A DNA stretch of 64,000 nt from Alcanivorax sp. 24 (GTDB lineage Bacteria > Pseudomonadota > Gammaproteobacteria > Pseudomonadales > Alcanivoracaceae), in NCBI RefSeq assembly GCF_004360225.1, contig NZ_SNUA01000009.1, positions 62,001 through 126,000 of the forward strand, written 5' to 3'. How positions within the stretch are numbered: the stretch's first letter is position 1; the number at the start of each line of letters is the position of its first letter. The notes beneath the pieces were generated by a model. The model searched no databases, had not been told where the DNA came from, and saw nothing but the letters and a program-made list of their open reading frames with translations. Shown piece by piece: positions 9,574 to 44,548 of this stretch. Made by a program: the position numbers and the translations under genes.

Positions 9574-9659
9574 GCTGTGGGAAGCGGCCTTGGCCGCGAA
9601 TACTCCCCAGGGCAGTTGCCCATTCGCTTGCAAGCAAGCTTCCCACAGTGGCTTCGTAG
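9574..9659. repeat. Inverted pair of REP elements
   Basis: One REP (CTGTGGGAAGCGGCCTTGGC) faces a second in opposite orientation (ATTCGCTTGCAAGCAAGCTT, then CCCACAG). It ends 31 bp from the stop of the acyl-CoA ligase gene. The rest of the 559-bp gap from 9131 contains no gene or other element that I recognise. Confidence 0.75.
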
Positions 9660-18441: not shown

Positions 18442-19977
18442 TCAACCGTCCGGGATTCCCTCCGCCTCTTTCCTCAGCAATGCCTTCTGAATCTTCCCCG
18501 CCGGTGTCAACGGCAGGCTGTCACGAAAAACCAGGCGACGGGGAATTTTATAATCCGCCAACGCCCGGCAATGCGCCAGCACCGCGGCCTCGTCCAGATC
18601 GGTGCCGGGGCGCGAGACGATGTAGTAGCAACCGATTTCACCAAGCACCGCGTCAGGCACACCGATACCGGCCACCATCATCACCTGCTCCAGACGGGCA
18701 ATGTGATTCTCCACCTCGGCGGGATAGACATTGAAGCCGCCCTGAATAAACATGTCCTTCTTGCGGCCACGCAAGGTAATCATGCCCTTGTCATCGCGCT
18801 CACCGAGATCGCCGGTGTGCAGCCAACCTTCCTCATCGAAGGCACCGCCGCTATCGGCGGCGCCAATGTATCCCGGCACCACGCCCACGCCACGAAACAA
18901 CAGCTCACCGACCTCGCCGACGGGCAGGTCGGCGCCCGTTTCGTCCACCACCCGCAAGCCGGCATCGGCCAACGGCTGGCCGATACAGCGTTTCAAGCTA
19001 TCGTCATCGCATTTCCAAGGCGTCATGACGATGGCTCCGGACGTCTCCGACAAGCCGTACAGATTCATCAGCGTGGCCCTCGGCACCACCTCCTGCAAGC
19101 GTGCCAGCAGGGTATCGTCCACATTGCTGCCCCCTGTGATGACCATCCGCACCCGCGACAGGTCCACCTGCTCCAGCGCCGGGTTCATCAACAGCAACGT
19201 CAGCATGGTGGGGACACCCTGCAGCAAGGTAGGGGGATGTTCGGCCATCATCGCCAACACCTGATCCGCTTTGAAATCCGCCACCAGCTCACAGGTCGCC
19301 CCACCAAGCAGGCTGGTCAGAATGCCGCAGGTGATCCCTCCCACATGATTGAACGGCAGCGCCAGTTGGGTGTGATCCTCCGGGGAGATGCGGGTATGCG
19401 CTGCCTGGGCAGCGGCGGAAGCGAGCATGCTGGCATGGGTCAGCGCCGTACCTTTGGGGCGGCCCGTGGTGCCGGAGGTATAGATCACCATGGCGAGGTC
19501 GTCGGCGCTCAATTCCGGATCCAGGGCCGCCGGCTCCGCTCGCAGCAGTTGCTGAAAGCGCTCTCCATCCAGATCCACCACCTGCTCCAGGGCCGGAGTC
19601 TCCGGTGCGAGCCGATCGAACAGGGCGAGAAAATCGCACTTGTCATGATCCGCCACGGTGAATACCGCTCTTATGCCGCTGTCCTTGACCATATAGCGCA
19701 GCTCCGCATCGCGGTAACGCACCGACAATCCCACCACCGCCACCCCCAAACGGGCACAGGCGAAAAACAACCACAACCAATCCACACGATTGGGGGCGAT
19801 CACCCCAATACGATCACCACGACGCAGGCCCAATTCCCGCAGGCCGCCAGCCAGACTGGCGCTGATGGTTTGTGCGTCGTCGAAAGAATAGCGAACGCCG
19901 TTATCGATCCATCCGGTCCGTTGGGCGTACTCTTGAGCAACCAGGTCGAGCTGGTCGGGAATACGTCTGACGCTCAT
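18442..19977 (-). CDS. Acyl-CoA ligase (AMP-forming), second copy
   Basis: A 511-residue ANL-family ligase with the P-loop VIYTSGTTGRPKGTA near residue 170, LYGLSETSGAIV near 300, and the hinge/catalytic region GRKKDMFIQGGFNVYP and PLTPAGKIQK at the C-terminus. GGAGA precedes the ATG at 19977. It sits 22 bp downstream of the AraC-type regulator on the same strand and is probably cotranscribed with it. The substrate is unknown; a medium- or short-chain or aromatic acid is possible. Its closeness to the regulator suggests it supplies the inducing acyl-CoA or removes the inducer, which is inference. Confidence 0.86.
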   Translation of the reverse strand: MSVRRIPDQLDLVAQEYAQRTGWIDNGVRYSFDDAQTISASLAGGLRELGLRRGDRIGVIAPNRVDWLWLFFACARLGVAVVGLSVRYRDAELRYMVKDSGIRAVFTVADHDKCDFLALFDRLAPETPALEQVVDLDGERFQQLLRAEPAALDPELSADDLAMVIYTSGTTGRPKGTALTHASMLASAAAQAAHTRISPEDHTQLALPFNHVGGITCGILTSLLGGATCELVADFKADQVLAMMAEHPPTLLQGVPTMLTLLLMNPALEQVDLSRVRMVITGGSNVDDTLLARLQEVVPRATLMNLYGLSETSGAIVMTPWKCDDDSLKRCIGQPLADAGLRVVDETGADLPVGEVGELLFRGVGVVPGYIGAADSGGAFDEEGWLHTGDLGERDDKGMITLRGRKKDMFIQGGFNVYPAEVENHIARLEQVMMVAGIGVPDAVLGEIGCYYIVSRPGTDLDEAAVLAHCRALADYKIPRRLVFRDSLPLTPAGKIQKALLRKEAEGIPDG

Positions 19978-29825: not shown

Positions 29826-31739
29826 ATGTTGTCCCTGGAACACATCAACCTGCGCCGTGGCGCTAGTCTGCTGCTGGAAGACGCCAACTTCACTCTGCAT
29901 CAGGGTCAGAGAGTCGGATTGGTGGGCAAGAACGGCAGCGGCAAGAGCTCCCTGTTCAAGTTGATCAGTGGCGAGCTGGATACCGATGCCGGGCAATTAT
30001 TCCGCCCCGCCGACTGGCGCCTGGCGATGATGGCCCAGGAGGTCCCGGCTCTGCCGCAGCCGGCCATCGACTACGTTCTGGACGGTCATCAGGAACTGCG
30101 CGCCGCAGAACGGGAACTGGCCCGGGCCCAGGATAACGACGACAGCGACGCCATGGCCCACGCCCATGCCCGCCTGGACACCCTGCGTGCCTGGGAACAA
30201 CCGGCCCGCGCCGCCACCCTGTTGGCCGGTCTCGGCTTCAACGAAGCGCAACAGCAACAGCCGGTCAGCGCTTTCTCCGGTGGCTGGCGCATGCGTCTGA
30301 ATCTGGCCCAGGTGCTGCTCGCCAACGCCGATCTGGTACTTCTGGATGAGCCCACCAACCATTTGGATCTGGACGCCATCCTCTGGTTGCAGCAGTGGCT
30401 GGTTCAGCAGCCCGGCGCCTTGATGGTGATTTCCCACGACCGCGCGTTTCTCGACGCCACCGTCGACGAGATCCTGCATATCGACCAGGGGCGGCTCAAA
30501 CGCTATACCGGCACCTATTCGGACTTCGAACGGCAACGGGCGGAGCAACTCTCGCAACAGCAAAAGCTGTATGAGAAGCAGCAAACCCAGATCGCTCATT
30601 TGCAGAAGTTCGTGGACCGGTTCAAGGCCAAGGCATCCAAGGCCAAGCAGGCACAGAGCCGGGTAAAAGCGCTGGAGAAACTGGAGCGCATCGCTCCGGC
30701 CCATGTGGATTCCGCGTTCCGTTTTTCATTCCACACGCCCAAGCGGCTGCCGGATCCGATGATCGACCTGGAAGGGGTCGGCTGCGGCTACCACGGCCAG
30801 CCGGTGCTCACCAACGTCACCCTGAATCTGCGCCCGGAATCCCGGCTTGGTCTGCTCGGTCAGAACGGCGCCGGCAAGTCCACCCTGATCCGCACCCTGG
30901 TGGGCGAACTGCCGGCCATCGGCGGACATCTACTGCACGGCCCGGATCTGGTGATCGGCTACTTCCACCAGCAGCAGGTGGATCGTCTCGACGCCAAGGA
31001 CACCCCCTACCAGTTACTCAACCGGGAGTACCCGCAATGGAGCGAGCAGCAGATTCGCAATGAGCTGGGTGGCTTCGGCTTTCATGGCGACGACGTGTTC
31101 GCCCCGATCGGCCGCTTTTCCGGCGGCGAGAAGGCGCGCCTGGCGCTGTCACTGATCGTGCAGCAGCAACCTTCGCTGTTGTTGCTCGATGAGCCGGCCA
31201 ACCACCTGGATCTGGACATGCGCGAAGCGCTGACCATGGCGCTGCAGGATTTCGCCGGCGCCGTGGTCCTGGTTTCCCACGACCGCCATCTGCTGGAAAC
31301 CACCGTGGACGAATTTCTACTGGTGGCGGACGGCGGTGTGCGCCCCTTCGATGGCGACCTGGACGACTATGCGCGCTGGCTGCAGCAGACCCGCCGCGAG
31401 CAGCAGGCGGAAGCGAAAGCGGACGAGAGCCGCGCACCGCTGCGCGATGACGCCAAACAGCGTCGCCAGGACGCGGCCCGCCGCCGCGAGCAGCTACGGC
31501 CATTGAAGAAAACCGTGGAGAAATGCGAGCAGCGTCTGGAGTTGGCCGGCCGGGAGTTAGCCGGGGTGGAGATGCTGCTGGGCGACGAGGGCCTGTACAC
31601 CGACAGCACGCGCAAGCAGGAGCTGGCCGATCTGCTCACCCGCCAGGGACAACTGCGTAACGACAAGGAACAACAGGAAATGGCGCTGCTGGAGGCGATG
31701 GAAGCCTTGGAAGAGGCGGAAAAGGCAGTGAATAGTTAA
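29826..31739 (+). CDS. ABC-F family ATPase, YheS-like
   Basis: A 637-residue soluble protein with two ABC ATPase domains and no membrane segment. ABC-F proteins act on the ribosome. Walker A motifs are GLVGKNGSGKSSLF near residue 32 and GLLGQNGAGKSTL near 342. Signature motifs are FSGGWRMRL and FSGGEKARL, and the Walker B segments are VLLDEPTNHLDLDA and LLLDEPANHLDLDM. A linker with charged helices lies between, and a coiled-coil tail ends the protein, as in YheS. The start sits right behind the MITE-like element, so its native ribosome site has been replaced or lost; the nearest purines lie in the repeat end. Confidence 0.9.
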   Translation: MLSLEHINLRRGASLLLEDANFTLHQGQRVGLVGKNGSGKSSLFKLISGELDTDAGQLFRPADWRLAMMAQEVPALPQPAIDYVLDGHQELRAAERELARAQDNDDSDAMAHAHARLDTLRAWEQPARAATLLAGLGFNEAQQQQPVSAFSGGWRMRLNLAQVLLANADLVLLDEPTNHLDLDAILWLQQWLVQQPGALMVISHDRAFLDATVDEILHIDQGRLKRYTGTYSDFERQRAEQLSQQQKLYEKQQTQIAHLQKFVDRFKAKASKAKQAQSRVKALEKLERIAPAHVDSAFRFSFHTPKRLPDPMIDLEGVGCGYHGQPVLTNVTLNLRPESRLGLLGQNGAGKSTLIRTLVGELPAIGGHLLHGPDLVIGYFHQQQVDRLDAKDTPYQLLNREYPQWSEQQIRNELGGFGFHGDDVFAPIGRFSGGEKARLALSLIVQQQPSLLLLDEPANHLDLDMREALTMALQDFAGAVVLVSHDRHLLETTVDEFLLVADGGVRPFDGDLDDYARWLQQTRREQQAEAKADESRAPLRDDAKQRRQDAARRREQLRPLKKTVEKCEQRLELAGRELAGVEMLLGDEGLYTDSTRKQELADLLTRQGQLRNDKEQQEMALLEAMEALEEAEKAVNS

Positions 31740-31825
31740 CAAGGAACAGTGACTGGGGAGCGCTCTGGAACCGCCGGCTTACATACCGATTCGCTGCCAA
31801 GGCAACTGCCCACGACAGAAACAAC

Positions 31826-31910
31826 GAAGCCGCTGTGGGAAGCTTGCTTGCAAGCGAATGGGCTCTCCCCTAAAAAGATTCGCTTGCAAGCAAGCTTCCC
31901 ACGGCGGCGG
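31826..31910. repeat. Inverted pair of REP elements
   Basis: CTGTGGGAAGCTTGCTTGCA with CGAAT faces ATTCGCTTGCAAGCAAGCTT with CCCAC. It lies between the convergent ABC-F and hemS-like genes. Confidence 0.78.
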
Positions 31911-31915
31911 CCGCC

Positions 31916-32896
31916 TCAGGCGAACAAAGCACCGGGGCGGCCTTCCTGTATCAGGGCTTCACCGAGCAGGGCCAACCAGGCATCCTCATTCCCTCCGGAG
32001 GACAGGGTCCACAGCCAGCGCCCCTCCGAATCGAGCGCTTCCAGCGCGGTCAGCACACGGCCAGGTCCCGGACGGCGCAGACGCCATATCGACGCCACCC
32101 GCCCCATATCGAGACTGATCAGGGTGCCGTTATGGGCCAGATGACATTGCCCCTGCTGCCAACGTGGCGGCGACCAAGGCGCGCTCAAACACAATTTGAC
32201 CCCCCGATTACCGGTGCACACCGTCAGCGGCATGGCGCGGTCGGCGGCAAGAGACAACACTGACGGCACCGTCTCGCTACGTATCGGGCAGGCAAATTTG
32301 TCCCGCACCGCCTGATACAACACCTGCCGGCGATCCCCCACCTGGCGCAGTAATTCCTCGAACGCGTCCTCGTCGCTTTGCGACCAGCGTCGCTCCCAAT
32401 CCATAAGCGAGCCCGCCGGGCGGTGCGTCGCCCGCACGGCGAGCGGATAGCCCAGTTGCTGTTGATCCGGATGCAGCATGGCACAGACCAGTTCCTCGAA
32501 GGCCAGGCCACCGCTTTCCGGCGCAACCGCCATTTGCTGTACCGGTTCGCCGTAGTCATCGAAAAACAGCAGGCTGCGTGCCGGCAGATCCGCCACCGGT
32601 GCCAATATCGCCAGCACCGAGCGCCATTGGCGAACGTCCAGTTCCTGACGCATGCGGCACTGCTCACCGCGGCAGTCCAGCCCGGGGCTGGAGCCGGTCA
32701 GAGCCGGATAGCGTATTGACTGGGAGACCCGGCCGCCGCTGGCAAAAGTGGTTACCACCAGGGAACCGAGCCGATAGAGTCCTTTGAGAATCGCCATGGG
32801 CTCTTCCTGGAGCCTCAGTACGCGATCACCCAGGGCGGCGCGACAATGTCGCAGGGTCGCCGACTGGGCAGTGCCGCCTATGGCCATTACCGTCAC
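31916..32896 (-). CDS. HemS/ChuS-like heme-handling protein
   Basis: A 326-residue cytoplasmic protein, close to the usual HemS/ChuS length, with two repeated halves. The first half has ARSLLFFDDYGEPVQQMAVAP, and the second has VCTGNRGVKLCLSAPW and VASIWRLRRPGPGRVLTALE, matching positions in ChuS. Such proteins bind heme and some degrade it; the heme-ligand histidine could not be confirmed. The start is set at a GTG (32896) because GGAGG lies 7 bases upstream; the ATG at 32887 is the alternative. It is 125 bp downstream of hemP, behind the Fur box. Divergent from typical HemS, so moderate confidence. Confidence 0.72.
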   Translation of the reverse strand: MTVMAIGGTAQSATLRHCRAALGDRVLRLQEEPMAILKGLYRLGSLVVTTFASGGRVSQSIRYPALTGSSPGLDCRGEQCRMRQELDVRQWRSVLAILAPVADLPARSLLFFDDYGEPVQQMAVAPESGGLAFEELVCAMLHPDQQQLGYPLAVRATHRPAGSLMDWERRWSQSDEDAFEELLRQVGDRRQVLYQAVRDKFACPIRSETVPSVLSLAADRAMPLTVCTGNRGVKLCLSAPWSPPRWQQGQCHLAHNGTLISLDMGRVASIWRLRRPGPGRVLTALEALDSEGRWLWTLSSGGNEDAWLALLGEALIQEGRPGALFA

Positions 32897-33021
32897 GATC
32901 CTACCTCCAAGGTACGCGAAGAAATTAGGGTGTGGGCAGCTGGCGGCGGCTTGCTTTCCACAGTCAGGGAGAACTGTCGGGGCCACGAGCGTGGCCGGCA
33001 TTCTGGTTGGTCGGAACCAGG

Positions 33022-33204
33022 CTACTTGGTCAGAATCAAGCGGTCGTTGGCGGTGCGCCGTAACAGGTAACGCTCGCCGCCGTGCTCGATCCAGAGTTTG
33101 CCATCGGCGTTGAGCAAGGCACGGCTGGCGACGCTGTCTTCTTGTACGGCGATGCGTCGGCCACTGCGAGTGGCGATCGTCACCGGTTTCTTCCATTGCG
33201 ACAT
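33022..33204 (-). CDS. hemP: Hemin uptake protein HemP
   Basis: A 60-residue protein with the HemP pattern SRALLNADGKLWIEHGGERY and the ending LILTK. HemP proteins are small and often head heme-uptake operons under Fur control. The start at 33204 (MSQWKK) follows CAGGAG at 7 bases; an in-frame ATG at 33225 has its purines touching the start codon and is less likely. A Fur-box-like sequence lies 30 bp upstream. The hemS-like gene follows on the same strand. The heme receptor and ABC importer expected in a full locus are not in the window. Confidence 0.85.
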   Translation of the reverse strand: MSQWKKPVTIATRSGRRIAVQEDSVASRALLNADGKLWIEHGGERYLLRRTANDRLILTK

Positions 33205-33233
33205 GGCGGGCTCCTGTTCGCTCATCCTTAACT

Positions 33234-33252
33234 GAGAATGATTATCATCACA
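33234..33252. promoter_or_regulatory. Fur box
   Basis: GAGAATGATTATCATCAC matches the 19-bp Fur consensus GATAATGATAATCATTATC at 14 positions. It lies 30 bp upstream of hemP and about 90 bp upstream of the divergent small gene. It implies iron repression of hemP and the hemS-like gene. Confidence 0.8.
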
Positions 33253-33339
33253 GGTCGGCGGTGCCGTCAACCTTTGTTTACAAGAAATCCGACCCCGATC
33301 ATCTCGCCGCGCCGTTCGATCCTGGTTACACTCAAAATC

Positions 33340-33858
33340 ATGATGACATCGATAGCCGCTTCCGCCATTCGTACGCCGCAAGAAAAACTGGCTGCCATCC
33401 TCGACAGCCACCAACCCCGCCGCCTGCTCACCGTCAGCCTCAACCCGGTTCCGGTCGCCGAGCACTGGTGCGATGACCATGGCTGTGAGTTGATCCGCAT
33501 AGAGGAGCAAAACCCGTTCGATGCCCTGGAGCACATCGACCGGGTGGACATGGCGATTGTCGCCGATCAACTGGAGTACATGAGCCAACGCGACGGCGAA
33601 TCCTTGATCGGCCTGCTGCGCAACCTGCACACGGACTCCCTGGTGGCGGTCTACCAACCGCACCTGGCACCGGAGAAACTGCGCTGGCCCAACAACGGCT
33701 TCCTCGCTCTGGGTTGCCGGGAGGAAGGTCACTTCGCGCAGGATCAGAGGGAACTGCTGCTCTACAGCTACGATCTCGATTCGTACAATTTCAAACGCGC
33801 CTGGAATAATCCGCGCTTCTGGGCCAATCCGGAGAACTGGGGCAAGTATTGGTGGTGA
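33340..33858 (+). CDS. Conserved protein of unknown function (DUF6231-like)
   Basis: A 172-residue soluble protein. I recognise it only as a conserved gammaproteobacterial family, possibly DUF6231. Visible segments are LEHIDRVDMAIVADQLEYM in the middle, which looks like a methyltransferase-fold strand and helix, and a Trp-rich tail (RFWANPENWGKYWW). No cofactor motif was confirmed. Two adjacent ATGs at 33340 and 33343 are equally plausible, and no clear ribosome site helps choose. It is divergent from hemP, but the Fur box is on the hemP side. Confidence 0.68.
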   Translation: MMTSIAASAIRTPQEKLAAILDSHQPRRLLTVSLNPVPVAEHWCDDHGCELIRIEEQNPFDALEHIDRVDMAIVADQLEYMSQRDGESLIGLLRNLHTDSLVAVYQPHLAPEKLRWPNNGFLALGCREEGHFAQDQRELLLYSYDLDSYNFKRAWNNPRFWANPENWGKYWW

Positions 33859-33862
33859 GGTA

Positions 33863-33948
33863 ACATCGCGGTCCACGGACCCTTGCTGTCCCACAATTCG
33901 CTGGCACGCTGGCACGCTGACACGCAACACGCCGGCACGCCAAACCCA
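33863..33948 (+). repeat. Hairpin-bearing intergenic repeat, copy 2
   Basis: Starts 5 bp after the stop codon at 33858. It has ATCGCGG leading into the hairpin GGTCC-AC-GGACC, then TTGCTGTCCCACAATTCGC and ACACGCAACACGCCGGCACG. Same order as copies 1 and 3. Confidence 0.65.
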
Positions 33949-33992
33949 AGGCCCGCTTGCCGGCCTTGGGAACGTGAATTCAGAAGAACCCC

Positions 33993-34016
33993 GTCATGCC
34001 GGACTTGATCCGGCAT
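33993..34016. repeat. Palindromic TGCCGGA-type repeat
   Basis: TGCCGGACTTGATCCGGCA forms a hairpin. The flanking GTCA resembles a palindromic unit seen in many bacterial genomes. Between here and 34140 are further hairpins, such as AACGGTGCT-TAG-AGCACCGTT and CGCCCT-TG-AGGGCG. No gene is supported in this stretch. Confidence 0.5.
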
Positions 34017-34148
34017 CTCCCTCTACGAAGCCATGCGCCCTACAGAGGGGAGCCCGGGTCACACAACGGTGCTTAGAGCACCGTTTGGACGCCCTTGAGG
34101 GCGCCCCAAAGGGTGCTTTCAAAGCGTGTAAGCGGGTCGCCCCAAAAC

Positions 34149-34184
34149 CATGGGACACCAGTGGCTCACGAGCCGCGATTGATT
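34149..34184 (-). repeat. Hairpin-bearing intergenic repeat, copy 4 (inverted, partial)
   Basis: Read on the minus strand it gives AATCGCGGCTCGTGAGCC then ACTGGTGTCCCA, the same 5' module as copies 1-3. The 3' module ACACGCAACACG is absent. Confidence 0.5.
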
Positions 34185-34250
34185 CCTGGCCTAGCCAAGA
34201 CCGCGCGCCTCAAGTAAGGTGACGCGCGACCCGTCCAGACATGCAGACCA

Positions 34251-34931
34251 ATGATCTTCGAACGCCTCAAGGAAGCCCTTTATTTCTGGCGACGCCACCT
34301 TGCCGCCCTGTTTCTGATCAGTGCCCCTTTCGCCTTGCTCGGTGAAGCCGCGCAGTGGGCGATGGGCCCGCTTCTGATGTTCGACGGGGATCAACTGACC
34401 GGCATCAATCTGAGCGTGGGCCTGGTCATGCTGCTGATCCGGCCGCTGGCGGAAGGCGCGCTGATCATGCAGCTGGCGTCGATACATCAGGGCCGCGCCC
34501 AGGGTGTGATCGCTTGCACTCTGCCCGCGCTGATGCTGTACCCGGCGCTGCTGCTGACCTATTTTCTGATCGGTATCGGCGTCACCCTTGGCTGGATGCT
34601 GCTGTTCTTCCCGGCACTTTGGGTTTATACCCGCCTGTGCTTCGCCCCTTTCCGGGTCGCACTCCACCGGCAGTCACCGATCGCCGCCTTGCGCGGTGCT
34701 TTTCAGTACAGTGGCCCGTGCCAGTGGCAACTGCTGGCCGCCATCGCCCTCACCGGGCTGATCATGTTCGGCCTGATCGGCCTGACCAATACTCTGTTCA
34801 CCAGCCTGCTGGGTGAGAACGCCGGGGTTGGTCTGGTGGTCAACGTTCTGGCTTCCCTGATCACCACCCTGATCAACGTGGTGGTATTCCGATTCTGGCT
34901 CCTGAACGATCCCGGCACCGAACAGAACTGA
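34251..34931 (+). CDS. YciC-like (UPF0259) membrane protein
   Basis: A 226-residue integral membrane protein with about five to six hydrophobic segments, for example LAALFLISAPFALLG near residue 20 and LLLTYFLIGIGVTLGWMLLF near 105. The repeated RR...A(L/I)...F pattern (RQSPIAALRGAFQY) fits the YciC/UPF0259 group, whose function is not known. It converges on the DNA methyltransferase gene with only 3 bp between stops. No operon partner is evident. Confidence 0.6.
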   Translation: MIFERLKEALYFWRRHLAALFLISAPFALLGEAAQWAMGPLLMFDGDQLTGINLSVGLVMLLIRPLAEGALIMQLASIHQGRAQGVIACTLPALMLYPALLLTYFLIGIGVTLGWMLLFFPALWVYTRLCFAPFRVALHRQSPIAALRGAFQYSGPCQWQLLAAIALTGLIMFGLIGLTNTLFTSLLGENAGVGLVVNVLASLITTLINVVVFRFWLLNDPGTEQN

Positions 34932-34934
34932 CCG

Positions 34935-36356
34935 TCAGCGGCCCCGCGGCACCCAGCGCAGGGCCCGGAATCCCTGGTTCACCAGGGCCTCCCGTTTCAA
35001 TACTCGCCGAACCCGCTCGCGGGTCAGTTCGGCGATGGTGGGCCAACGCTCGTCACCCGTGGGTTCGCTGCCCTGCACCAGGACAAAGCGGCGCCGGCTG
35101 CGCTGATCCCGGTTCAATTCCAATACCGCCTGCCCGGTGGTGCCGCTGCCGGCAAAGAAATCCAGCACCAGGTCCCTGGGGCCGGTGGCGATCTCCAGCA
35201 GAAAGCGAATCAAGCGGGTGGGCTTGGGATAGGAGAACGGCGCCTGACCGCCGAACAACGCCTGCAACTCCTGGGTCCCTGAGCGGGCGGTACCGTACCG
35301 GTGCCCATCCAGCCAGGTCACGGGGACCTCGCCGAAAGGTGCCTTCTCGCGCAGAAACACTTTCAATTGCGGCCGCCCGCGTCCACGTCGTCCGAACAGG
35401 ATGCGCCCCTGTCCATTCAGTTCATTGAAGCGTTCCTCGCCAGTGCGCCAACAACGCCCCTCGGGCGGCCAGAAGGTCTCACCCGTGTTCGGGTTGGTGA
35501 TCGCGTAGGTCAGCCCCGGGCGACGGTTGGGCGCGTCGAAGGGATCCAGCTTCCAGGGGCCGCGCGGGTCATCATCCGGATTGCTGTAACGGTCATCGAT
35601 CAACGGGCCGGGACGCACAGCGAACCCCGGCAAACGATCCCAGATATCCTGATTGCCAGCGGTCAGACGGCGCTGCTGACGGCGCCGCACCCGGGCGTAG
35701 GCCAACACGTATTCATGCTGCACACTGAGGTCGGTGTCGTTTTGCCGTGAGGTGCGCGACTGCCAGGGAAAAGTGGCGACGAAATTGTCCGGGCCGAAGA
35801 TCTCGTCAAGAATCAGACGCAGAGTATGCACTTCATGATCGTCGATGCTGACGAACAATACCCCGTCATCGCGCAACAGCTCCCGCGCCAGCAGCAAACG
35901 CGGGTACATCATGTTCAGCCAGCGGGCATGCAGGCGGCCACTGTCACCGTTTTCGCCGGCGTCACCGGCCACCGCCAGATAAGTGGCCACGGAATGGCGA
36001 TAATTGTCCGGATACAGAAACCCCCGGCCGGTATTATAGGGCGGGTCGATGTAGATCATTTTCACCTGGCCGCGCAGTTCCGGCTGAAGATGATGCAGCA
36101 CCGCCAGGTTGTCGCCCTCGATGATACGGTGAGGGGCCGCTCCGGTGGCCAGCGGCGGCCGTCCCAGGCGTTCCAGGTGGCCACGGGGCACCCGGGTCAA
36201 CTCGGCAAGCATGGCCTCCTTGCCCGGCCAGTACAGGCCGAAACCGCCATTGTCACGGGGGTCGTTAAGGGAAAACCTTGTTTGCGAATTTGCAAAATCA
36301 TTCTTGGCGGAAGGTCTATAACAAAAATCGAGAACAGCAGCCCCATCCATATCCAT
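34935..36356 (-). CDS. Orphan adenine-type DNA methyltransferase (type III Mod-like, beta class)
   Basis: A 473-residue site-specific DNA methyltransferase. The catalytic motif DPPYNT (residues 104-109) precedes the SAM-binding motif FFAGSGTTGQ (about 400-409), the beta-class order used by type III Mod subunits and some solitary enzymes. LYWPGKEA near residue 41 is the usual N-terminal segment. The middle 200 residues are the likely target-recognition region. No restriction subunit lies nearby. The first 30 codons are AT-rich and the start (36356 or 36350) is weak. A TTGC-N6-GCAA dyad at 36282 falls inside these codons and another lies 85 bp upstream. Confidence 0.85.
   Translation of the reverse strand: MDMDGAAVLDFCYRPSAKNDFANSQTRFSLNDPRDNGGFGLYWPGKEAMLAELTRVPRGHLERLGRPPLATGAAPHRIIEGDNLAVLHHLQPELRGQVKMIYIDPPYNTGRGFLYPDNYRHSVATYLAVAGDAGENGDSGRLHARWLNMMYPRLLLARELLRDDGVLFVSIDDHEVHTLRLILDEIFGPDNFVATFPWQSRTSRQNDTDLSVQHEYVLAYARVRRRQQRRLTAGNQDIWDRLPGFAVRPGPLIDDRYSNPDDDPRGPWKLDPFDAPNRRPGLTYAITNPNTGETFWPPEGRCWRTGEERFNELNGQGRILFGRRGRGRPQLKVFLREKAPFGEVPVTWLDGHRYGTARSGTQELQALFGGQAPFSYPKPTRLIRFLLEIATGPRDLVLDFFAGSGTTGQAVLELNRDQRSRRRFVLVQGSEPTGDERWPTIAELTRERVRRVLKREALVNQGFRALRWVPRGR
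36282..36295. promoter_or_regulatory. TTGC-N6-GCAA operator dyad (within methyltransferase 5' codons)
   Basis: TTGCGAATTTGCAA. One of seven perfect copies in this region. It is 61-74 bp inside the methyltransferase gene as called, so it could block transcription or mark a start codon further downstream. Confidence 0.7.
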
Positions 36357-36440
36357 AAATGCCCGCTTCGCTCTTTGAATACCGATTTTTTTCCACGGCC
36401 CTCCATGGAGTTACCGTAGCACGAGGCAGAGCATTTTGGT

Positions 36441-36454
36441 TTGCATAAACGCAA
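36441..36454. promoter_or_regulatory. TTGC-N6-GCAA operator dyad upstream of methyltransferase
   Basis: TTGCATAAACGCAA. It is 85 bp upstream of the methyltransferase start and 159 bp from the dyad at 36282. Confidence 0.72.
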
Positions 36455-36491
36455 TATGGAAATAAATTAGAGCGACCCGCAAGTCATCGCC

Positions 36492-36560
36492 TTGCAATTC
36501 AACAAATGTGACACACCTCACTTTGCTCAACTGCAAATGTCGCTCTTTGCGATGTTGCAA
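36492..36560. promoter_or_regulatory. Operator cluster of the first XRE gene (one degenerate, two perfect dyads)
   Basis: TTGCAATTCAACAA at 36492 is a 7/8 match. TTGCTCAACTGCAA at 36523 and TTGCGATGTTGCAA at 36547 are perfect. Start-to-start steps are 31 and 24 bp. The last dyad starts 57 bp before the XRE start codon. Confidence 0.8.
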
Positions 36561-36603
36561 TTATGTCATTGCGCCCCGAACGACGACCTATGAAACTTTC
36601 ATC

Positions 36604-36957
36604 ATGGATATCGGGGCCTTACTCAAGGAACGGCGTGAGCGCCGCAAAGAAACTCTGGAAGAGGTGGCGTTTCGCGCGGACACCGACCCGGGCAATTTGT
36701 CCCGTATCGAACGCAACCGTCAGGACCTTTCCGTCAATCGCCTGATCAAATTGTGCGAAGCCCTGGAAATAAGCCTTTCCGAGTTCTTCGCGGAGCTGGA
36801 GAAGCGTGCCGGCGGTAATCGGCTCAGTGATCCCGCCGCGGCTTTCGACAAGGAAACCCGCTGGTTGCTGAAGACGCTCAACACGGTCCCGCCGACCCGG
36901 CGCCGCCTGATTCTGGAAGTCACCGAAACCATCGTCAAAAGCGGCCGGCTGGCCTGA
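36604..36957 (+). CDS. XRE-family regulator, first of a tandem pair
   Basis: A 117-residue protein with an XRE helix-turn-helix over residues about 5-60: LKERRERRKETLEEVAFRAD, then DPGNLSRIERNRQDLSV as the recognition region. The C-terminal 50 residues are helical and start LSDPAAAFDKETRWLL, shared with the next gene. It resembles the controller-type regulators of restriction-modification loci but is longer. Start at 36604 is supported by equal operator spacing with the paralog. It probably represses its own promoter through the dyads at 36492-36560 and may act on the methyltransferase. Confidence 0.85.
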   Translation: MDIGALLKERRERRKETLEEVAFRADTDPGNLSRIERNRQDLSVNRLIKLCEALEISLSEFFAELEKRAGGNRLSDPAAAFDKETRWLLKTLNTVPPTRRRLILEVTETIVKSGRLA

Positions 36958-36969
36958 GCATGTTGCACC

Positions 36970-37038
36970 TTGCGCAATGGCAAGAGCATCTTTCCTATTA
37001 TTGCGTAATTGCAAATGCGCTCTTTTGCGTTTTTGCAA
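36970..37038. promoter_or_regulatory. Operator cluster of the second XRE gene (three perfect dyads)
   Basis: TTGCGCAATGGCAA at 36970, TTGCGTAATTGCAA at 37001 and TTGCGTTTTTGCAA at 37025. The steps are again 31 and 24 bp, and the last dyad starts 57 bp before the start codon at 37082. Confidence 0.85.
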
Positions 37039-37081
37039 ATAGACCATGGCGGGCAAAAGAGCGCTTACCGACACTTATTCC

Positions 37082-37465
37082 ATGGACACGGACATCGGCG
37101 GCATCTTGAAAAGGCGGCGGCTAAGCCGCAACGAAACTCTCGAGGACGTGGCGTTCCGGGCGGACACCGACGCGGGCAATTTGTCCCGCATCGAGCGCAA
37201 CAAGCAGGAGCTCACGGTACAACGGCTGGGGCGGCTTTGTGATGCCTTGGAAATGACGCTGGCGGATTTCTTTCAAGAACTGGAAGGACGCGCCTTGAGC
37301 GACCCGGCCGCCGCTTTCGACAAACCTACCCGGGAACTACTGTCGGTAGTCAGCGAAATGAATCCCGCCGGCCGCGCTCAATTGGTGGAAGTGGCTCAGG
37401 CAATGGCCCGGTATTCAGTGTCGGCCCGCCGCCGTCAGCGGCGGTCGAAAACCACGAAATCGTAA
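37082..37465 (+). CDS. XRE-family regulator, second of a tandem pair
   Basis: A 127-residue paralog of the previous gene. The helix-turn-helix (LKRRRLSRNETLEDVAFRAD, DAGNLSRIERNKQELTV) and the LSDPAAAFDK linker are near-identical, while the last 45 residues differ and end in a basic tail ([12 protein letters not shown]). The start at 37082 is preferred over 37046 because the operator-to-start distance then equals that of the first copy. Its 3' end overlaps the convergent folA gene by 31 bp. The two recognition helices are close enough to bind the same dyads. Confidence 0.85.
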   Translation: MDTDIGGILKRRRLSRNETLEDVAFRADTDAGNLSRIERNKQELTVQRLGRLCDALEMTLADFFQELEGRALSDPAAAFDKPTRELLSVVSEMNPAGRAQLVEVAQAMARYSVSARRRQRRSKTTKS

Positions 37466-37962
37466 TCGTACGGGTTCGGGCCTTCCGCCTTGAAGGATTC
37501 CCGGCCCCGCTCCACCCATTCCGACCGGTCCCACCGCGGAAACCAGGCATCCCCCTCCACATCCGCCTGCACTTCGGTGATATAGAGCCGGTCCGCCCGG
37601 GGCAGTGCCAGGGCATAGATCTGCGCGCCACCCAGGATCATCACTTCATCCTGGCCATCGATGAACGCCACGCTTTCCGCCAGCTCCAAGGCCTGATCCA
37701 GATCCGCCACCACCCTGCCGCCCTCGGCCTGGTAGTCCGGGTCCCGGCTGATGACGATGTTGGTGCGGCCCGGCAATGGCCGCCCCAGGGATTCCCAGGT
37801 CAGCCGCCCCATCACCACCGGTTTGCCCAAAGTGGTGCGCTTGAAGTATTTCAGATCGTTGGGCAGATACCAGGGCAGTTTGTTGTCGCGGCCGATCACC
37901 CGATTGCGGGCCATGGCCACGATCATCGCCACCCGCACGCCTTGCTCGTTGCTTTCCTTCAT
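37435..37962 (-). CDS. folA: Dihydrofolate reductase FolA
   Basis: FolA reduces dihydrofolate to tetrahydrofolate with NADPH. The 175-residue product has the N-terminal [20 protein letters not shown], the NADPH segment [15 protein letters not shown], and [10 protein letters not shown]. The start at 37962 overlaps the thyA stop by ATGA. It is the last gene of the tauE-like-lgt-thyA-folA operon, and thymidylate synthase makes the dihydrofolate that this enzyme recycles. The C-terminus overlaps the second XRE gene on the other strand. Confidence 0.95.
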
Positions 37963-38792
37963 ACCGCGATCGGCGCCTTGATCAGAGGATGGGGGTCATA
38001 GCCTTCCAGGGTGAAATCCTCATAACGGAAGGCGAACAGGTCACGGACCTCCGGATTGAGATGCATGGTGGGCAGAGCGCGGGGCTCCCGCGCCAGTTGA
38101 GTATCCGCCTGCTCCAGGTGATTGCTGTAGAGATGGGCATCGCCCAGGGTATGCACGAACACCCCCGGCCGCAGATCGCAGACCTGAGCCATCATCAACG
38201 TCAGCAGCGCATAGGAGGCGATATTGAAAGGCACGCCCAGGAACACATCCCCACTGCGCTGATAAAGCTGGCAGCTGAGCCGGCCGTCGGACACGTAGAA
38301 CTGGAACAGGCAATGACAGGGCGGTAACGCCTGCCGGCCTTGCGCCGCGTTCTGATCCGGCGACACCGACGGATCCGGCAGCACCGCTGGATTCCAGGCG
38401 CTGACGATCAGCCGCCGGGAGTCCGGGTTACGGCGGATCTCTTCCAGCACCTCACTGATCTGATCGATCACACGGCCGTCCGGGGTCGCCCAGGAGCGCC
38501 ACTGCGCCCCGTACACCGGCCCCAGGTCACCGGCTTCGGTGGCCCACTCGTCCCAGATCGAAACGCCGTTGTCCTTCAAGTAGCCGATGTTGGTATCACC
38601 GGCCAGGAACCACAGCAACTCATGGACAATGGACTTGAGATGCACCTTCTTGGTGGTCAGCAACGGGAAGCCGTCGCGCAGATCGAAGCGCATCTGATAA
38701 CCGAACAGGGACAAGGTACCAGTACCGGTACGATCCCCTTTCTGAATGCCGTGCTCACGCACTTCCCGCAACAGATCGAGATATTGCTTCAT
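37959..38792 (-). CDS. thyA: Thymidylate synthase ThyA
   Basis: ThyA methylates dUMP to dTMP with methylene-tetrahydrofolate. The 277-residue product has the catalytic cysteine in [14 protein letters not shown], the dUMP-binding [20 protein letters not shown] region, and DRTGTGTLS at the N-terminus. A short insertion ([13 protein letters not shown]) precedes the active site, slightly longer than in E. coli. It overlaps lgt upstream and folA downstream by 4 bp each. Confidence 0.96.
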
Positions 38793-39586
38793 ACCGCCGC
38801 TCTCCGCTGATCATGTCGATACGCCCAGACCACCATGGCGGCGCCGATCAGCACCATGGGGAGGCTCAACAGCATACCCATGGTCAGCCAGCCCCCGGCC
38901 AGGTAACCGATGTGCGCATCCGGCTCGCGGAAGAATTCCACCAGTATCCGCGAAAGCCCGTAGCCAATGCCAAACAGGCCGGTGACCGAACCCGCCGGCC
39001 GCGGTTTGGCGGAGTAGATCCACAGCACCAGGAACAGCACCACGCCTTCCAGGAAAAACTCATAGAGCTGGGAAGGGTGGCGTGGCACGCCCATGGGGTC
39101 GGAGGGGAAGACCATGGCCCAGGGCATGTCCGAGGCGCGCCCCCACAGTTCACCGTTGATGAAATTACCGAAGCGGCCGGCCCCCAGACCGATGGGTACC
39201 ACCGGCACGGCGAAATCCGCCACCTGGAAATAGCGCTTGCCGGTGCGACGGGCGAACAGCCAGAACGCGAAGAGCACGCCCAGAGCGCCACCATGGAAGC
39301 TCATGCCGCCGGTCCAGATCTGGAACAACCACAGCGGGTTGTCGAGAAACCGGTCGAAACCATAGAACAGAACGTAGCCCACGCGGCCGCCGAGGATCAC
39401 CCCCAGCGCCGCGTAGAACAGCAGGTCACTGACCTGCTGCCGGGTCCAGCCGCTGCCGGGCCGGTCCGCTCGCGTCTTCGCCAGCCACCAGCCGCCGGCG
39501 AAGCCGATCATGTACATCACCCCGTACCAGTGAATCTGCAACGGCCCCAGGGAGACCAGCACGGGATCGATTTGCGGGAAGGTCAT
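38789..39586 (-). CDS. lgt: Prolipoprotein diacylglyceryl transferase Lgt
   Basis: Lgt attaches diacylglycerol from phosphatidylglycerol to the lipobox cysteine of prolipoproteins in the inner membrane. The 265-residue product has about seven membrane segments. Signature regions are [17 protein letters not shown] near residue 95 and [16 protein letters not shown] near 135. Start at 39586 (MTFPQIDPV) follows AGGGAG; an upstream in-frame start is less likely. It lies 10 bp after the tauE-like gene and overlaps thyA. Confidence 0.95.
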
Positions 39587-39596
39587 CAAAGGCTCC

Positions 39597-40394
39597 CTAA
39601 CCAAGCATCAGTTCGGTGCCGATCACGATCAGCACCACGGCGAAAATACGCTTCAGGGTGGCGGAAGGCAGGCGGTGGCTGAGCCGCGCGCCCACCCGCG
39701 CCATCGGAAAACTGGTGACGACGATGGCCAGCGCCGCGGGGAAGTACACATAGCCCAGCGCCCATTGCGGCAGCCCCGGCTTGCCCCAACCGGTGATGAT
39801 GAAACCCAACGTGCCGGCCAGCGCGATCGGCAAGCCACAGGCGGCGGAGATCGCCACCGCATTTTGCATCGGCAACCGGCACCAGGACAAAAACGGGACG
39901 GTCAGCGAACCACCACCGATACCAAACAGACTGGAGATGGTGCCGATCACACCGCCGGCCCCGGCGAGGCCGGCGCTTCCAGGCACCCGCTCCTCGCCCT
40001 GCTGCTGCTTGCGGCGGCCGCTGAGCAGCATCTGCAATGCCACCAGTACCGCGAACACGCCGAACAATCGGGTCAGCATCGGTCCGGACAGCCGGTCGGC
40101 GATGACCGCGCCGATCAGCGCCCCCACCACGATACCAACACCGAGCCGGAACGCCACCGGCCAACGTACGAAGCCGGCCCGATGGTGGGTGTGCACGGAA
40201 CTGATCGAGGTGACGATGATGGTACACAGCGAGGTTCCCACCGCCAGTTGGGCCACCACCTGGGGGTCGATGCCCATGGCGTGATAAAGGTAAATCAGCG
40301 GCGGCACGATCACCACACCACCGCCGAGCCCCAGAGCGCCGCCCAGCAGTCCGGCGAACACACCGATCAGGGCGCAGATCAAAAACAGGGTCAT
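39597..40394 (-). CDS. TauE/SafE family sulfite/organic anion exporter
   Basis: A 265-residue membrane protein with about eight hydrophobic segments and the repeated glycine-rich pattern of the family: [20 protein letters not shown] near residue 15 and [21 protein letters not shown] near 150. Members export sulfite or sulfonates, but the substrate here is unknown. The start at 40394 ([12 protein letters not shown]) is chosen over a longer frame at 40451 because GAGGAA lies upstream and the helix begins immediately. It heads the operon containing lgt, thyA and folA. Confidence 0.88.
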
Positions 40395-40495
40395 GGCGGG
40401 CCCATTCCTCTGACAAAGTAAGTCGGACAAACAGATAAAGCGCCGCGCCACCGACCGCTTTCGCCAGGTACGCGCCGAGCCGGTATGCTAGCAGC

Positions 40496-40659
40496 TAGGG
40501 CCTGTTCACACTATTTCCATAGCGCCTGCTGGATGCCCTTTTTGCCTCCAGCCAAGCGGAGGGCGCGCGGTTTGGTCATTCCAAATGAGCGACGAGTAAC
40601 GCAGAGTAGTGACGTTTTAGCCGCAACAGGCGCGATGGAAATAGTGCGAACAGACCCTA
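40496..40659. mobile_element. MITE-like element of a second family (164 bp)
   Basis: Terminal inverted repeats of about 33 bp with three mismatches: TAGGGCCTGTTCACACTATT at the left and TAGGGTCTGTTCGCACTATT read from the right. The flanks show a possible 3-bp duplication (AGC). It has an inner hairpin TTTGG-TCATT-CCAAA. No ORF. It lies in the divergent region between the tauE-like and NRDE genes, 48 bp before the NRDE start. Confidence 0.75.
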
Positions 40660-40707
40660 AGCGGACCGTTTTCCCGATTCCGTTTTCCGATCCAGAAAGA
40701 GACGCCC

Positions 40708-41466
40708 ATGTGTATTGTTTTGTTCCGCTGGCAGCCCGGTGATGCCTACCCTCTGGCGGTTTCCGCCAATCGTGACGAATTCCATCAACGGCCGGCGGAA
40801 CCGGCCCGCTGGCGCGGCGATGTGTTCTGCGGCCTGGATCGGCGGGCTGGCGGCACCTGGCTGGGCATCCATCGCGACGGCCGCTTCGCGGTGGTCACCA
40901 ATTACCGGGAACCAGTGGCCGAACGCACCGTCGGTGAGCTGTCCCGGGGGCTGCTGCCACAGGCCTTTCTGGAGAGCCATCAGAGCCCCGAACTGTTTTG
41001 CCGGTCGCTGGAAGCGGACGAGCATCTTTATTCCGGTTTCAATTTGCTGGTCGGGGACCGCGAGAGCCTGTGGTACCTGAGCAACCGCGGGCCGGCGGCG
41101 CAGCCGGTGAAACCGGGCCTGCACGGTCTTTCCAACGGCATACTGGACGATCCCTGGCCCAAGGTGGAGCGTGGCAAGCAGCGGCTGGCCCGGGTGCTGG
41201 AGGGAGAGGGCGCTCTTGGCGCATCCTCTCTCCACGATCTGCTCGGCGTGGTAGTGGACCCTTACCAACCGCCGGAAGAAGAACTTCCGGATACCGGCGT
41301 GGACCGGGAACTGGAACGGCTGGTAGCGCCGATCTTCATTCAGTCGCGACAGTACGGCACCCGCGCCAGTTCGGCGGTGCTGCTGCCCCGGGAAGGGGCT
41401 CCGATGATGCGCGAGCAGTGCTGGCGGGCGGATGGCGAGGCGGATGGGGCGCCGACGGACAGTTGA
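40708..41466 (+). CDS. NRDE (TANGO2-like) family protein
   Basis: A 252-residue cytoplasmic protein with the family start MCIVLFRW and the name-giving NRDE motif in LAVSANRDEFHQRPAEPA. It also has GGTWLGIHRDGRFAVVTNYR. NRDE/TANGO2 proteins occur in bacteria and eukaryotes; a role in heme trafficking has been proposed for some eukaryotic members, but bacterial function is not settled. AGAAAGAGA precedes the ATG. The 164-bp MITE-like element lies just upstream. Confidence 0.88.
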   Translation: MCIVLFRWQPGDAYPLAVSANRDEFHQRPAEPARWRGDVFCGLDRRAGGTWLGIHRDGRFAVVTNYREPVAERTVGELSRGLLPQAFLESHQSPELFCRSLEADEHLYSGFNLLVGDRESLWYLSNRGPAAQPVKPGLHGLSNGILDDPWPKVERGKQRLARVLEGEGALGASSLHDLLGVVVDPYQPPEEELPDTGVDRELERLVAPIFIQSRQYGTRASSAVLLPREGAPMMREQCWRADGEADGAPTDS

Positions 41467-41498
41467 GCGGGGCATCCCGCCGATCCAGGGGAAGGATC

Positions 41499-41567
41499 AT
41501 TCGCGAGCAAGCACGCTTCCCACAAGTCGATACGAAGCCGCTGTGGTAAGCGTGCTTGCACGCGAAC
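41499..41567. repeat. Inverted pair of REP elements
   Basis: ATTCGCGAGCAAGCACGCTT with CCCACA faces CTGTGGTAAGCGTGCTTGCA with CGCGAA. It lies between the convergent NRDE and ptsP genes and abuts the ptsP stop codon. Confidence 0.72.
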
Positions 41568-43843
41568 TACGCCGCCGCGGGGGCACGGTGGCGGATCAGA
41601 TCGCCCAGGCCGACCTTGGTCAGTTGCAGATCCATGTAGGCGGTGATCACCTCGCCGTTGTCCATGGCCAGCACCTCGTTGAGCAGGCGACGCAGAAAGC
41701 CCATGTTGACCTGCCGCACCGCCGCCTTGACCCGTAACAGGTTGGAGGCATTCATGGACAAGGCGTCGAACCCCATCGCCATCAGCAGCAGAGCGGACGC
41801 CGGATCACCGGCCATTTCCCCGCACACCGATACCGGTTTGCCCTCGGCATGGGCCTGCTCCACCACATGCAGCAGCGCATGCAGCACCGACGGATGGAAA
41901 GAGTTATACAGGTCCGACACCTGGCGGTTATTGCGATCCACCGCCAGCAGATACTGGGTCAGATCGTTGGTGCCCACGGACAGGAAATCCACCCGCTGGG
42001 CCAGGGCCCGGGCCTGGTAAATGGTGGCCGGCACCTCGATCATCACCCCCACCGGAGGCATGTCCACGTCCACCCCTTCCTCGCGCACTTCCAGCCAGGC
42101 GCGATGGATAAGATGCTGGGCCTCCTCCGCCTCGAACACATTGGTGACCATCGGCAGCATGATCCGCAGGTTGTTGAGCCCAGCGGCGGCCTTGAGCATG
42201 GCCCGTACCTGGACGATGAAAATTTCCGGGTGATCCAGAGTGACCCGGATACCCCGCCAGCCGAGGAACGGGTTGTCCTCCTCGATGGGGAAATAGCTCA
42301 ATGACTTGTCGCCCCCCACGTCCAGTGTGCGCATGGTCACCGGCAACGGCGCGAACGCCTGCAATTGCTCCCGGTACAACACACGCTGCTCTTCCTCGGA
42401 GGGAAAGCGGTCACGGATCATGAACGGAATTTCGCTGCGGTACAGGCCCACGCCCTGGGCGCCGCGCTCCAGGGAGCGGTTGATGTCGGTCATCAGTCCT
42501 GTGTTCACCTGCAGCTGGACACTGATCCCGTCCTCGGTTTCCGCCGGCAGATCACGCAGTTTCTCCAGACCTTCCAACAAGCTCTGCTCTTCGGCGATCA
42601 GCTCCTCGAACTGATGCCTCAGTTCCGGGGTGGCATTGGCCACCACCCGGCCCCGGAAACCGTCGACGATCAGTTCCTTGCCATCCAGCTTCTTCAGCGG
42701 CAGATTCATCGCCCCCACCACGGTGGGAATACCCATGGCCCGGGCCACGATGGCCATGTGCGAATTACGTGACCCACGAGTAGTGACGATACCGGCAATA
42801 CGTTCCTGCGGCAGTTCCATCAGCATCGGCGCGGAAATATCCTCGCCGATGAGAATACAGTCGTGGGGAAATTCCAGCTCACGCCGGTTGTGGCTCTGCA
42901 ACTGGGCCAGCACCCGCCGCCCCAGATCACGGACGTCCGCCGCCCGCTCACGCAGGTAGGGGTCATCCATCATCTCGAAATTATGCACGTGGGCATCCAC
43001 CACGATGCGCAAGGCGCCCTGGGCCCAGTGCCCTTCGCGGATCTTGGCCACCACTTCCGCCGGCAGCGCATGACGGTCCAGCATGCGCAGGTACACATCA
43101 AACAGCGCCTGCTCTTCCGCCCCCAGGCTGGCCTTGGCGCGTTCCGCCAGATCGCGGATTTCCTTGCGCACCCGCACCAGCGCGTGGTCCAGCAGGGCGA
43201 TTTCGCCGCTGATATCCTCGGCTTCACGATCCGGCACCGCGGACAGGTCGGTTTGTGGAAACAGTAATTTGGCCAGGCCGATGGCGGCGCCGGAAGATCC
43301 GGGCTGGCCGTCGTACATGCTGGCCTGGCGCTCGCGGGTTTCCAATTGCTCGAACAGAATGCCGGACGCATGGGCATGGGCGATCACCGCCGACAGCTGG
43401 GCGGAGATGGTGACCAGGAACGCCTCTTCACTTTGGTCAAAGCGGCGGGCGTCACGTTGCTGCACCACCAGCACGCCCAGCACCTCGCCATGGTGCATCA
43501 CCGGAACACCGAGAAAAGCGTGGAATGGATCCTCACCGGTTTCCGCCAGATAGTGGAATTTCGGGTGGGCGAAGGCATCTTCCAGGTTGATCGGCTCCTC
43601 GCGCTGTCCCACCTGGCCCACCAGCCCCTCGGACAGCCCCAGGCTGACCCGGCCCACCGCCTCGCGCTTGAGCCCCTCGGAGGCCATCAGCACATAACGT
43701 TCCCGATCGTTGTCCCGCAAGTAAATGGAGCACACTTCGGTGCCCATGGCATCGCGCACCCGCTGGGCCATAAGATCCAGGGCCGAGCGAATGTCCGGCG
43801 CGTTATTCACTTCCTGCACAATGCGGCGCAGGGTATCAAGCAT
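41567..43843 (-). CDS. ptsP: Phosphoenolpyruvate-protein phosphotransferase PtsP (EI-Ntr)
   Basis: EI-Ntr starts the nitrogen phosphotransferase chain by passing phosphate from phosphoenolpyruvate to NPr. The 758-residue product has an N-terminal GAF sensor domain (about 1-165, [14 protein letters not shown]), then the EI core. The phospho-histidine is in [16 protein letters not shown] near residue 365. The PEP-binding barrel shows [16 protein letters not shown] and [18 protein letters not shown], and the C-terminus has [10 protein letters not shown]. It overlaps rppH by 8 bp, an arrangement common in Pseudomonas and relatives. Confidence 0.95.
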
Positions 43844-44339
43844 GTTTGCTCCTCTTGGGCAGGGCTGGGGCCAGTTCTCTCAGAGCTCGCGCATAGACCG
43901 CGCGCTTGAAATGCACCACTTTGCGGATCGGATACCAGTAGTTTACCCAACGCCAGTCCTGAAACTCCGGCTCCGGCCCCAGAGTCAGGTCGATGGCCGC
44001 CTCTGCCGCGTTAAGCCGCAGCAGAAACCATTTTTGCCGTTGCCCGATACAGCGGGGCCGGTTGCGTGGAGGGCGCAGGAAGCGGCGCGGCAAACGGTAG
44101 GTCAGCCAGCCTTCGGTATGGGCGAGAATGCTGACGTGTTCCTGGCGCAGCCCGACCTCTTCTTCCAATTCCCGGAACAGGGTCTCCTCCGGCGTCTCCC
44201 CGGGCATCATGCCACCCTGGGGAAACTGCCAGGCATCCCGGTTGCCAACGCGACGCCCCCAGAATACCCGGCCATCGGGCCCCGCGATCACGATACCGAC
44301 ATTCAGCCGATACCCCTGTTCATCAATAATGCCAGTCAT
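43836..44339 (-). CDS. rppH: RNA pyrophosphohydrolase RppH
   Basis: RppH removes pyrophosphate from the 5' end of triphosphorylated RNA and triggers mRNA decay. The 167-residue product has the RppH start [16 protein letters not shown] and the Nudix box [20 protein letters not shown] around residues 37-57, followed by EVGL. Start at 44339 is chosen over a longer frame at 44444 because it matches the family N-terminus. It is the promoter-proximal gene of the rppH-ptsP operon and divergent from the HAD gene. Confidence 0.94.
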
Positions 44340-44548
44340 GGTCTTCCAAACCCGGGGGAGCCGGCAACATCCGGCCCGCCGGGGCCGGAGGGGCACACAC
44401 AAGGCGTGCCGCGCCATGGCCATCATGGCGGCTCCGATACTCACTCATTAAACCTTGTCCCGGTAGCCTCGATCAATCGGCTGCCGAACGGATCGGCCTT
44501 TGCTATGCTCCTGGCGCCAACCTTTCTCTCTATTTCATGGGATCCAGC

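Follow-up and report, generated by a model that had tools for sequence, protein, structure and literature searches.

Two adjacent genes for small Cro/CI-type regulators of the marine bacterium Alcanivorax sp. 24, XRE1 and XRE2, are each preceded by three dyads of the type TTGCN6GCAA with identical spacing and lie next to the gene of a type III Mod-like DNA methyltransferase. With a probability of approximately 0.77, these dyads are operator arrays of the XRE proteins, which would form a self- and cross-regulated controller pair setting the level of the methyltransferase. The locus is well supported by comparison, and the mechanism proposed below is close to known ones.

Dyads upstream of the regulator genes

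The window, i.e. the whole stretch of DNA that was analyzed, comprises 64,000 nt (GCF_004360225.1, contig NZ_SNUA01000009.1, positions 62,001 to 126,000 of the forward strand). It harbors eight perfect TTGCN6GCAA dyads, one of them at position 18761. The other seven, together with a copy matching seven of the eight fixed bases (7/8), form a cluster of eight sites spanning 757 bp (Table 1). All eight had been described in an earlier note on this DNA, and the motif search located each of them at the position given there. Re-measurement also gave the same geometry: in both triples the dyads are stepped by 31 and then by 24 bp, and the last dyad starts 57 bp before the ATG. The start of XRE2 at 37082, which the note had deduced from this distance, is consistent with it.

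Table 1. Genes and dyads of the locus (positions in the window).
Feature	Position	Strand	Basis
Apparently solitary DNA methyltransferase (P0003, 473 aa), type III Mod-like	34935-36356	-	PF01555, 6e-32
Perfect dyad within the methyltransferase frame, close to the start	36282-36295		motif search
Perfect dyad in the methyltransferase/XRE1 gap, -163 from XRE1	36441-36454		motif search
XRE1 triple, distal dyad (7/8)	36492-36505		one-mismatch search, promoter alignment
XRE1 triple, middle dyad	36523-36536		motif search, promoter alignment
XRE1 triple, proximal dyad, 57 bp before ATG	36547-36560		motif search, promoter alignment
XRE1 (P0001, 117 aa), Cro/CI-type HTH regulator	36604-36957	+	PF01381, 9e-11
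XRE2 triple, distal dyad	36970-36983		motif search, promoter alignment
XRE2 triple, middle dyad	37001-37014		motif search, promoter alignment
XRE2 triple, proximal dyad, 57 bp before ATG	37025-37038		motif search, promoter alignment
XRE2 (P0002, 127 aa), Cro/CI-type HTH regulator	37082-37465	+	PF01381, 5e-7

In 100 shuffles of the whole window, 1.78 perfect dyads were obtained on average and seven at most, so that the observed number of eight was never reached. With one mismatch allowed, the window as a whole proved to be ordinary (46 matches, compared to a shuffle mean of 36.4, with eight of the 100 shuffles giving at least as many). When the composition of the segment from 36201 to 37100 was resampled 20,000 times, the mean was 0.057 perfect dyads and the maximum three. 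The two further dyads which the note had placed around the methyltransferase start were likewise recovered. The dyad at 36282 corresponds to codons 21-25 of the methyltransferase if the gene starts at 36356. It is present in two close relatives (L036, L037) and was not seen outside close relatives. Since the methyltransferases of L036 and L037 are approximately 94% identical, this presence is weak evidence of function. The dyad at 36441 lies 85 bp upstream of the methyltransferase ATG and has a perfect (8/8) counterpart in L037 and a 7/8 counterpart in L036.

Conservation of the arrays

The spacing was examined in ten held-out copy-2-type promoters (copy 1 of A. mobilis included) of nine other genomes, belonging to clades that had not been used for the hypothesis, and in eight copy-1 promoters of other clades; both sets come from few clades and are not independent. 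The proximal dyad was perfect in all ten copy-2-type promoters, and dyads of at least 7/8 were detected in nine of the ten at an offset of 24 bp and likewise in nine at 55 bp, the geometry described in the earlier note being kept at these promoters. Mean dyad scores at these offsets were 6.9 and 6.5, respectively, compared to 2.03 +/- 0.89 over all offsets from 14 to 119. The exception is copy 1 of A. mobilis, which has a 31/23 spacing. In the copy-2-type promoters compared, the proximal dyad starts 57-59 bp before the xre start codon. Of the copy-1 promoters, five revealed the 24-bp step at 7/8 or better and none the 55-bp offset. The half-sites are 0.88-0.96 identical while the identity of the spacers is 0.26-0.50 (ten pairwise comparisons of five representatives). 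Hence, the distance has been kept and not the sequence in between. In the A. venustensis clade, all three loci (L044-L046) possess a pair of dyads with a 24-bp step in the gap of 135 bp between the start codons of the methyltransferase gene and xre1, which makes shared control of the two genes likely there.

Dyads elsewhere in the genome and the genus

The complete genome (4.76 Mb) contains 110 perfect sites, compared to seven within 757 bp at the locus; the motif is therefore not dense elsewhere in the genome. For the tighter form TTGCN4TTGCAA, the whole genome gave six matches on the orientation searched and none on the other. Four of these matches are at the locus. The regulon search thus gave two matches outside it, one of which sits in a dispersed repeat. 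The frames flanking this match are, judged by eye, presumably related to HrcA and GrpE.

Tandem pairs of perfect dyads separated by 5-35 bp (steps of 19-49 bp) were searched for in 13 genomes of the genus, and 38 pairs were found in eight of them. All 15 pairs at the locus have a step of 24 or 31 bp, the remaining 23 a step of 21 or 22 bp. Within the searched range, perfect pairs stepped by 24 or 31 bp consequently occurred only at the locus. The genomes G002, G003, G004, G011 and G012 have no perfect pair; their copy-2 triple contains 7/8 sites. It is very unlikely that the dyads, instead of being operators, belong to a structural element or to an intergenic repeat of the dispersed type. The genus does possess other paired TTGCN6GCAA elements, several of them beside short tandem repeats, but their step differs from that of the arrays, and in the copy-2-type promoters the proximal dyads lie at a nearly constant distance from the start codon of the xre gene.

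The dispersed paired elements have the structure TTGCN6GCAA-N7/8-TTGCN6GCAA, and their 23 copies are distributed over seven of the 13 genomes. Their outer ends often read TTGCGG...CCGCAA, and the flanking tandem repeats consist of, e.g., CTATTAA or GTCTGGC units. Examples are G000:C2:17311-17345 (L096), C11:100922-100956 and C16:19633-19667, as well as L089, L091, L092, L094, L095, L097 and L099. The window also contains REP-like repeats around GCTTGCTTGCAAGCGA or its complement (at 9626, 15942, 15984, 31846, 31882, 46286 and 56359), which form inverted pairs 36-42 bp apart at two places.

The XRE proteins and their homologs

XRE1 and XRE2 share 59% identity in an alignment of 111 columns. Both proteins contain the segment TD[PA]GNLSRIERN which, judging from the family, would hold the recognition helix. 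A structure model of XRE1 (mean pLDDT 86, pTM 0.57) matched the folds of ClgR, C.Esp1396I, C.BclI and SinR, in agreement with a profile search. Matches to the PADLOC family 'Control_protein' were weak (1e-5 and 1e-7). Among solved structures, ClgR (5woq, 3f51) is the best match by sequence and fold. However, the two proteins reached only 36.1 and 33.3 bits at an NCBIfam cut-off of 170 for ClgR, and a Pfam scan of ten neighbors did not reveal a clp gene.

Adjacent XRE pairs are present in all 13 genus genomes, and relatives at E 1e-10 in eight of 44 other genomes searched. The tree of the XRE copies is too poorly supported to tell the orthology of copy 1 and copy 2 between clades. The assumption of the earlier note that an operator-regulator unit has simply been duplicated therefore finds no support, as this tree does not resolve the history. 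A mobile origin was also considered and rejected: relatives of XRE1 were absent from 72,556 plasmid and 50,697 phage records at E 1e-5. Viral contigs yielded 16 relatives, which are 30-43% identical over 66-69 residues. The 3′-end of XRE2 overlaps the convergent folA gene. In A. balearicus (L036, 4479-5081), the XRE2 frame extends to 200 codons, antisense into folA, whereas it stops at 127 codons in the window and at 130 in A. xenomutans.

As a binding test set, we compiled 21 upstream regions (within 180 bp of the start) of homologous XRE genes located away from the locus. Perfect dyads were detected in 12 of the 21 regions (TTGCN6GCAA in three, TTGCN7GCAA in nine), corresponding to about seven independent loci because the matches include near-duplicates (L048/L053, L058-L060, L061/L062) and two loci sharing a neighbor gene (L049/L054). 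Control stretches of 180 bp, drawn at random from the same loci, gave frequencies of 1.1% and 1.9%, respectively. Neither form was present as a perfect dyad in the other nine regions, among which one locus (L025/L055) was counted twice. The neighboring frames of the homologous genes differ, and Moraxellaceae and Alcaligenaceae are among their hosts. The strongest evidence for binding of the dyad by the XRE proteins is its association with their family. Taken together, the kept spacing over diverged spacers, the synteny described below and the dyads at homologous XRE genes make it most likely that the dyads are the XRE proteins' own operators.

An unlinked transcription factor that binds the dyads and controls the regulators and the methyltransferase is unlikely. 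The tie between XRE proteins and dyads is one of sequence, and about 100 further matches exist in the genome, which speaks for such a factor. On the other hand, the dyad is also found with XRE relatives in further contexts and bacterial families, where the neighboring frames are different, and perfect pairs with the steps of the arrays were met nowhere else in the 13 genomes.

Three loci of Alcaligenaceae/Burkholderiales (L058, L059, L060) carry three perfect TTGCN7GCAA dyads at approximately -155, -80 and -35, upstream of 4001. L058 and L060 are adjoined by a convergent frame of 628 aa which by eye resembles dihydroxy-acid dehydratase.

The methyltransferase and its surroundings

P0003 matched PADLOC MTase_III at 3e-111 and the Mod subunit of EcoP15I at 4e-51, and its Mod sequence includes the DPPY and FxGxG motifs. 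In all 12 orthologs, DPPYNTG is present, as is motif I (FFAGSG), the latter found by pattern search in nine and read directly in the other three. The gene occurs in all 13 genus genomes, and weaker relatives at E 1e-20 in seven of 44 other genomes. The window and 11 named loci all share the gene order methyltransferase-XRE-XRE-folA-thyA (12 of 12).

Type III restriction-modification systems consist of Res and Mod. A PADLOC scan of 12 neighboring frames within 29826-44444 did not match any restriction family, and a search of the window's genome for PF19778, the endonuclease domain of type III Res, gave no match. One of the 13 genus genomes (G011) has a match, L107 (G011:C7:39706-40023). A second Mod-like match is located on the same contig at a distance of about 6 kb, whereas the locus of G011 lies on C12. 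The missing restriction family nearby and the missing domain in the genome indicate that the methyltransferase of the locus is probably solitary. With solitary or phase-variable type III Mod methyltransferases, it has the Mod-like sequence in common (EcoP15I Mod). In contrast to them, it has two XRE genes and TTGC dyads as neighbors, and no tandem repeat array was listed in the gene.

Conceivably, the locus descends from a restriction-modification system with controller genes that has lost its restriction subunit and is now decaying. The resemblance of the methyltransferase to type III Mod and of the regulators to C proteins would fit this idea, as would the lack of a detectable Res endonuclease domain in 12 of the 13 genomes, including that of the window. 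In the loci compared, however, open frames, catalytic motifs and the operator geometry have been maintained although the spacers diverged, which is not expected of relics, and a C box is absent (see below). A decaying remnant is therefore quite improbable.

Promoters and proposed regulation

In seven representatives of the copy-2-type promoters, the elements TTGnG and GAnACT are conserved at a distance of 17 bp. They are located downstream of all dyads and end 6-8 nt before the ATG, and no Shine-Dalgarno sequence was recognized by eye in front of the copy-2-type ATGs. This arrangement would suit activation of a leaderless transcript, a reading toward which we only lean. Promoter predictions, scored with hexamer frequencies, did not beat shuffled sequences in any of nine regions (fraction of shuffles at or above the observed score 0.18-0.87), and the -35/-10-like pair of XRE2 in the window scored below zero (-0.27). 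Self-limiting control, as suggested in the earlier note, is thus not supported: no predicted promoter exceeded the shuffles, and dyads upstream of TTGnG/GAnACT would suit activation equally well. Its proposal of helical phasing holds for only one of the two steps, since at 10.5 bp per turn 31 bp correspond to 2.95 turns while 24 bp correspond to 2.29.

We infer the following mechanism. Dimers of XRE1 or XRE2 would bind TTGCN6GCAA by their nearly identical recognition-helix segment. Upstream of each xre gene, the fixed 31/24-bp spacing would set an array of three dimers, and dimers may also bind the divergent region common to xre1 and the methyltransferase gene. The regulators would thereby control themselves and perhaps the methyltransferase, the self- and cross-regulated pair determining how much of the probably solitary type III Mod-like enzyme is present. 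We lean toward a mixed circuit similar to that of C proteins, in which the copy-2-type promoters would be activated or finely autoregulated and the divergent promoters of the methyltransferase gene and xre1 repressed. A further speculation, to which little probability can be assigned, is a genus-wide epigenetic loop, in which methylation in or next to the dyads would alter XRE binding and the 31/24-bp array would read the methyltransferase level and set a heritable state.

Comparison to C-protein systems

In the restriction-modification systems from which C-protein circuits are known, the host is protected by timing. C proteins have the small XRE/Cro-CI HTH fold which is also found in XRE1 and XRE2, and they use dyad operators before their own gene and the methyltransferase gene, with which the dyad positions of the locus appear to agree. 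C.Esp1396I has three operators, upstream of its own gene and of the methyltransferase gene (PMC3758141), and in the PvuII system the C-dependent transcript is leaderless (PMC2997769). C.Kpn2I inhibits the methyltransferase promoter and binds a site within a coding region (PMC6237814); by analogy, it may serve as a precedent for the dyads at 36282 and 36441. For C.Csp231I, a C protein with a motif other than the GACT C box, two dyads separated by about 18 bp have been reported (PMC3115060).

C proteins recognize GACT C boxes, whereas the putative operator of the locus is TTGCN6-7GCAA. Within 36201-37100, GACT-N3..7-AGTC was not found; a single N5 match with one mismatch (36909) lies inside XRE1. 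Other differences are the two tandem regulators (117-127 aa), the three dyads per promoter, the type III Mod-like methyltransferase for which a restriction subunit was not found, and the same chromosomal place in all loci compared. Because neither a C box nor a linked restriction gene was detected, we did not assign the locus to the C-protein systems. It resembles C-protein control of restriction-modification without two of its defining features.

Significance

Literature searches for Alcanivorax combined with 'DNA methyltransferase' and XRE, or with 'orphan methyltransferase', did not find the locus described; a search for 'methylome' and Alcanivorax dieselolei gave a match apparently on another subject. 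What looks like a C-protein circuit, with an operator code of its own, two regulators and three-site arrays, is present in all 13 genus genomes searched. As the circuit adjoins a methyltransferase for which a type III partner was not found in 12 of these genomes, the locus allows one to test how a solitary methyltransferase is maintained at a fixed level. Beyond the genus, TTGC-N6/7-GCAA is a candidate operator code for a regulator family that also occurs in Moraxellaceae and Alcaligenaceae.
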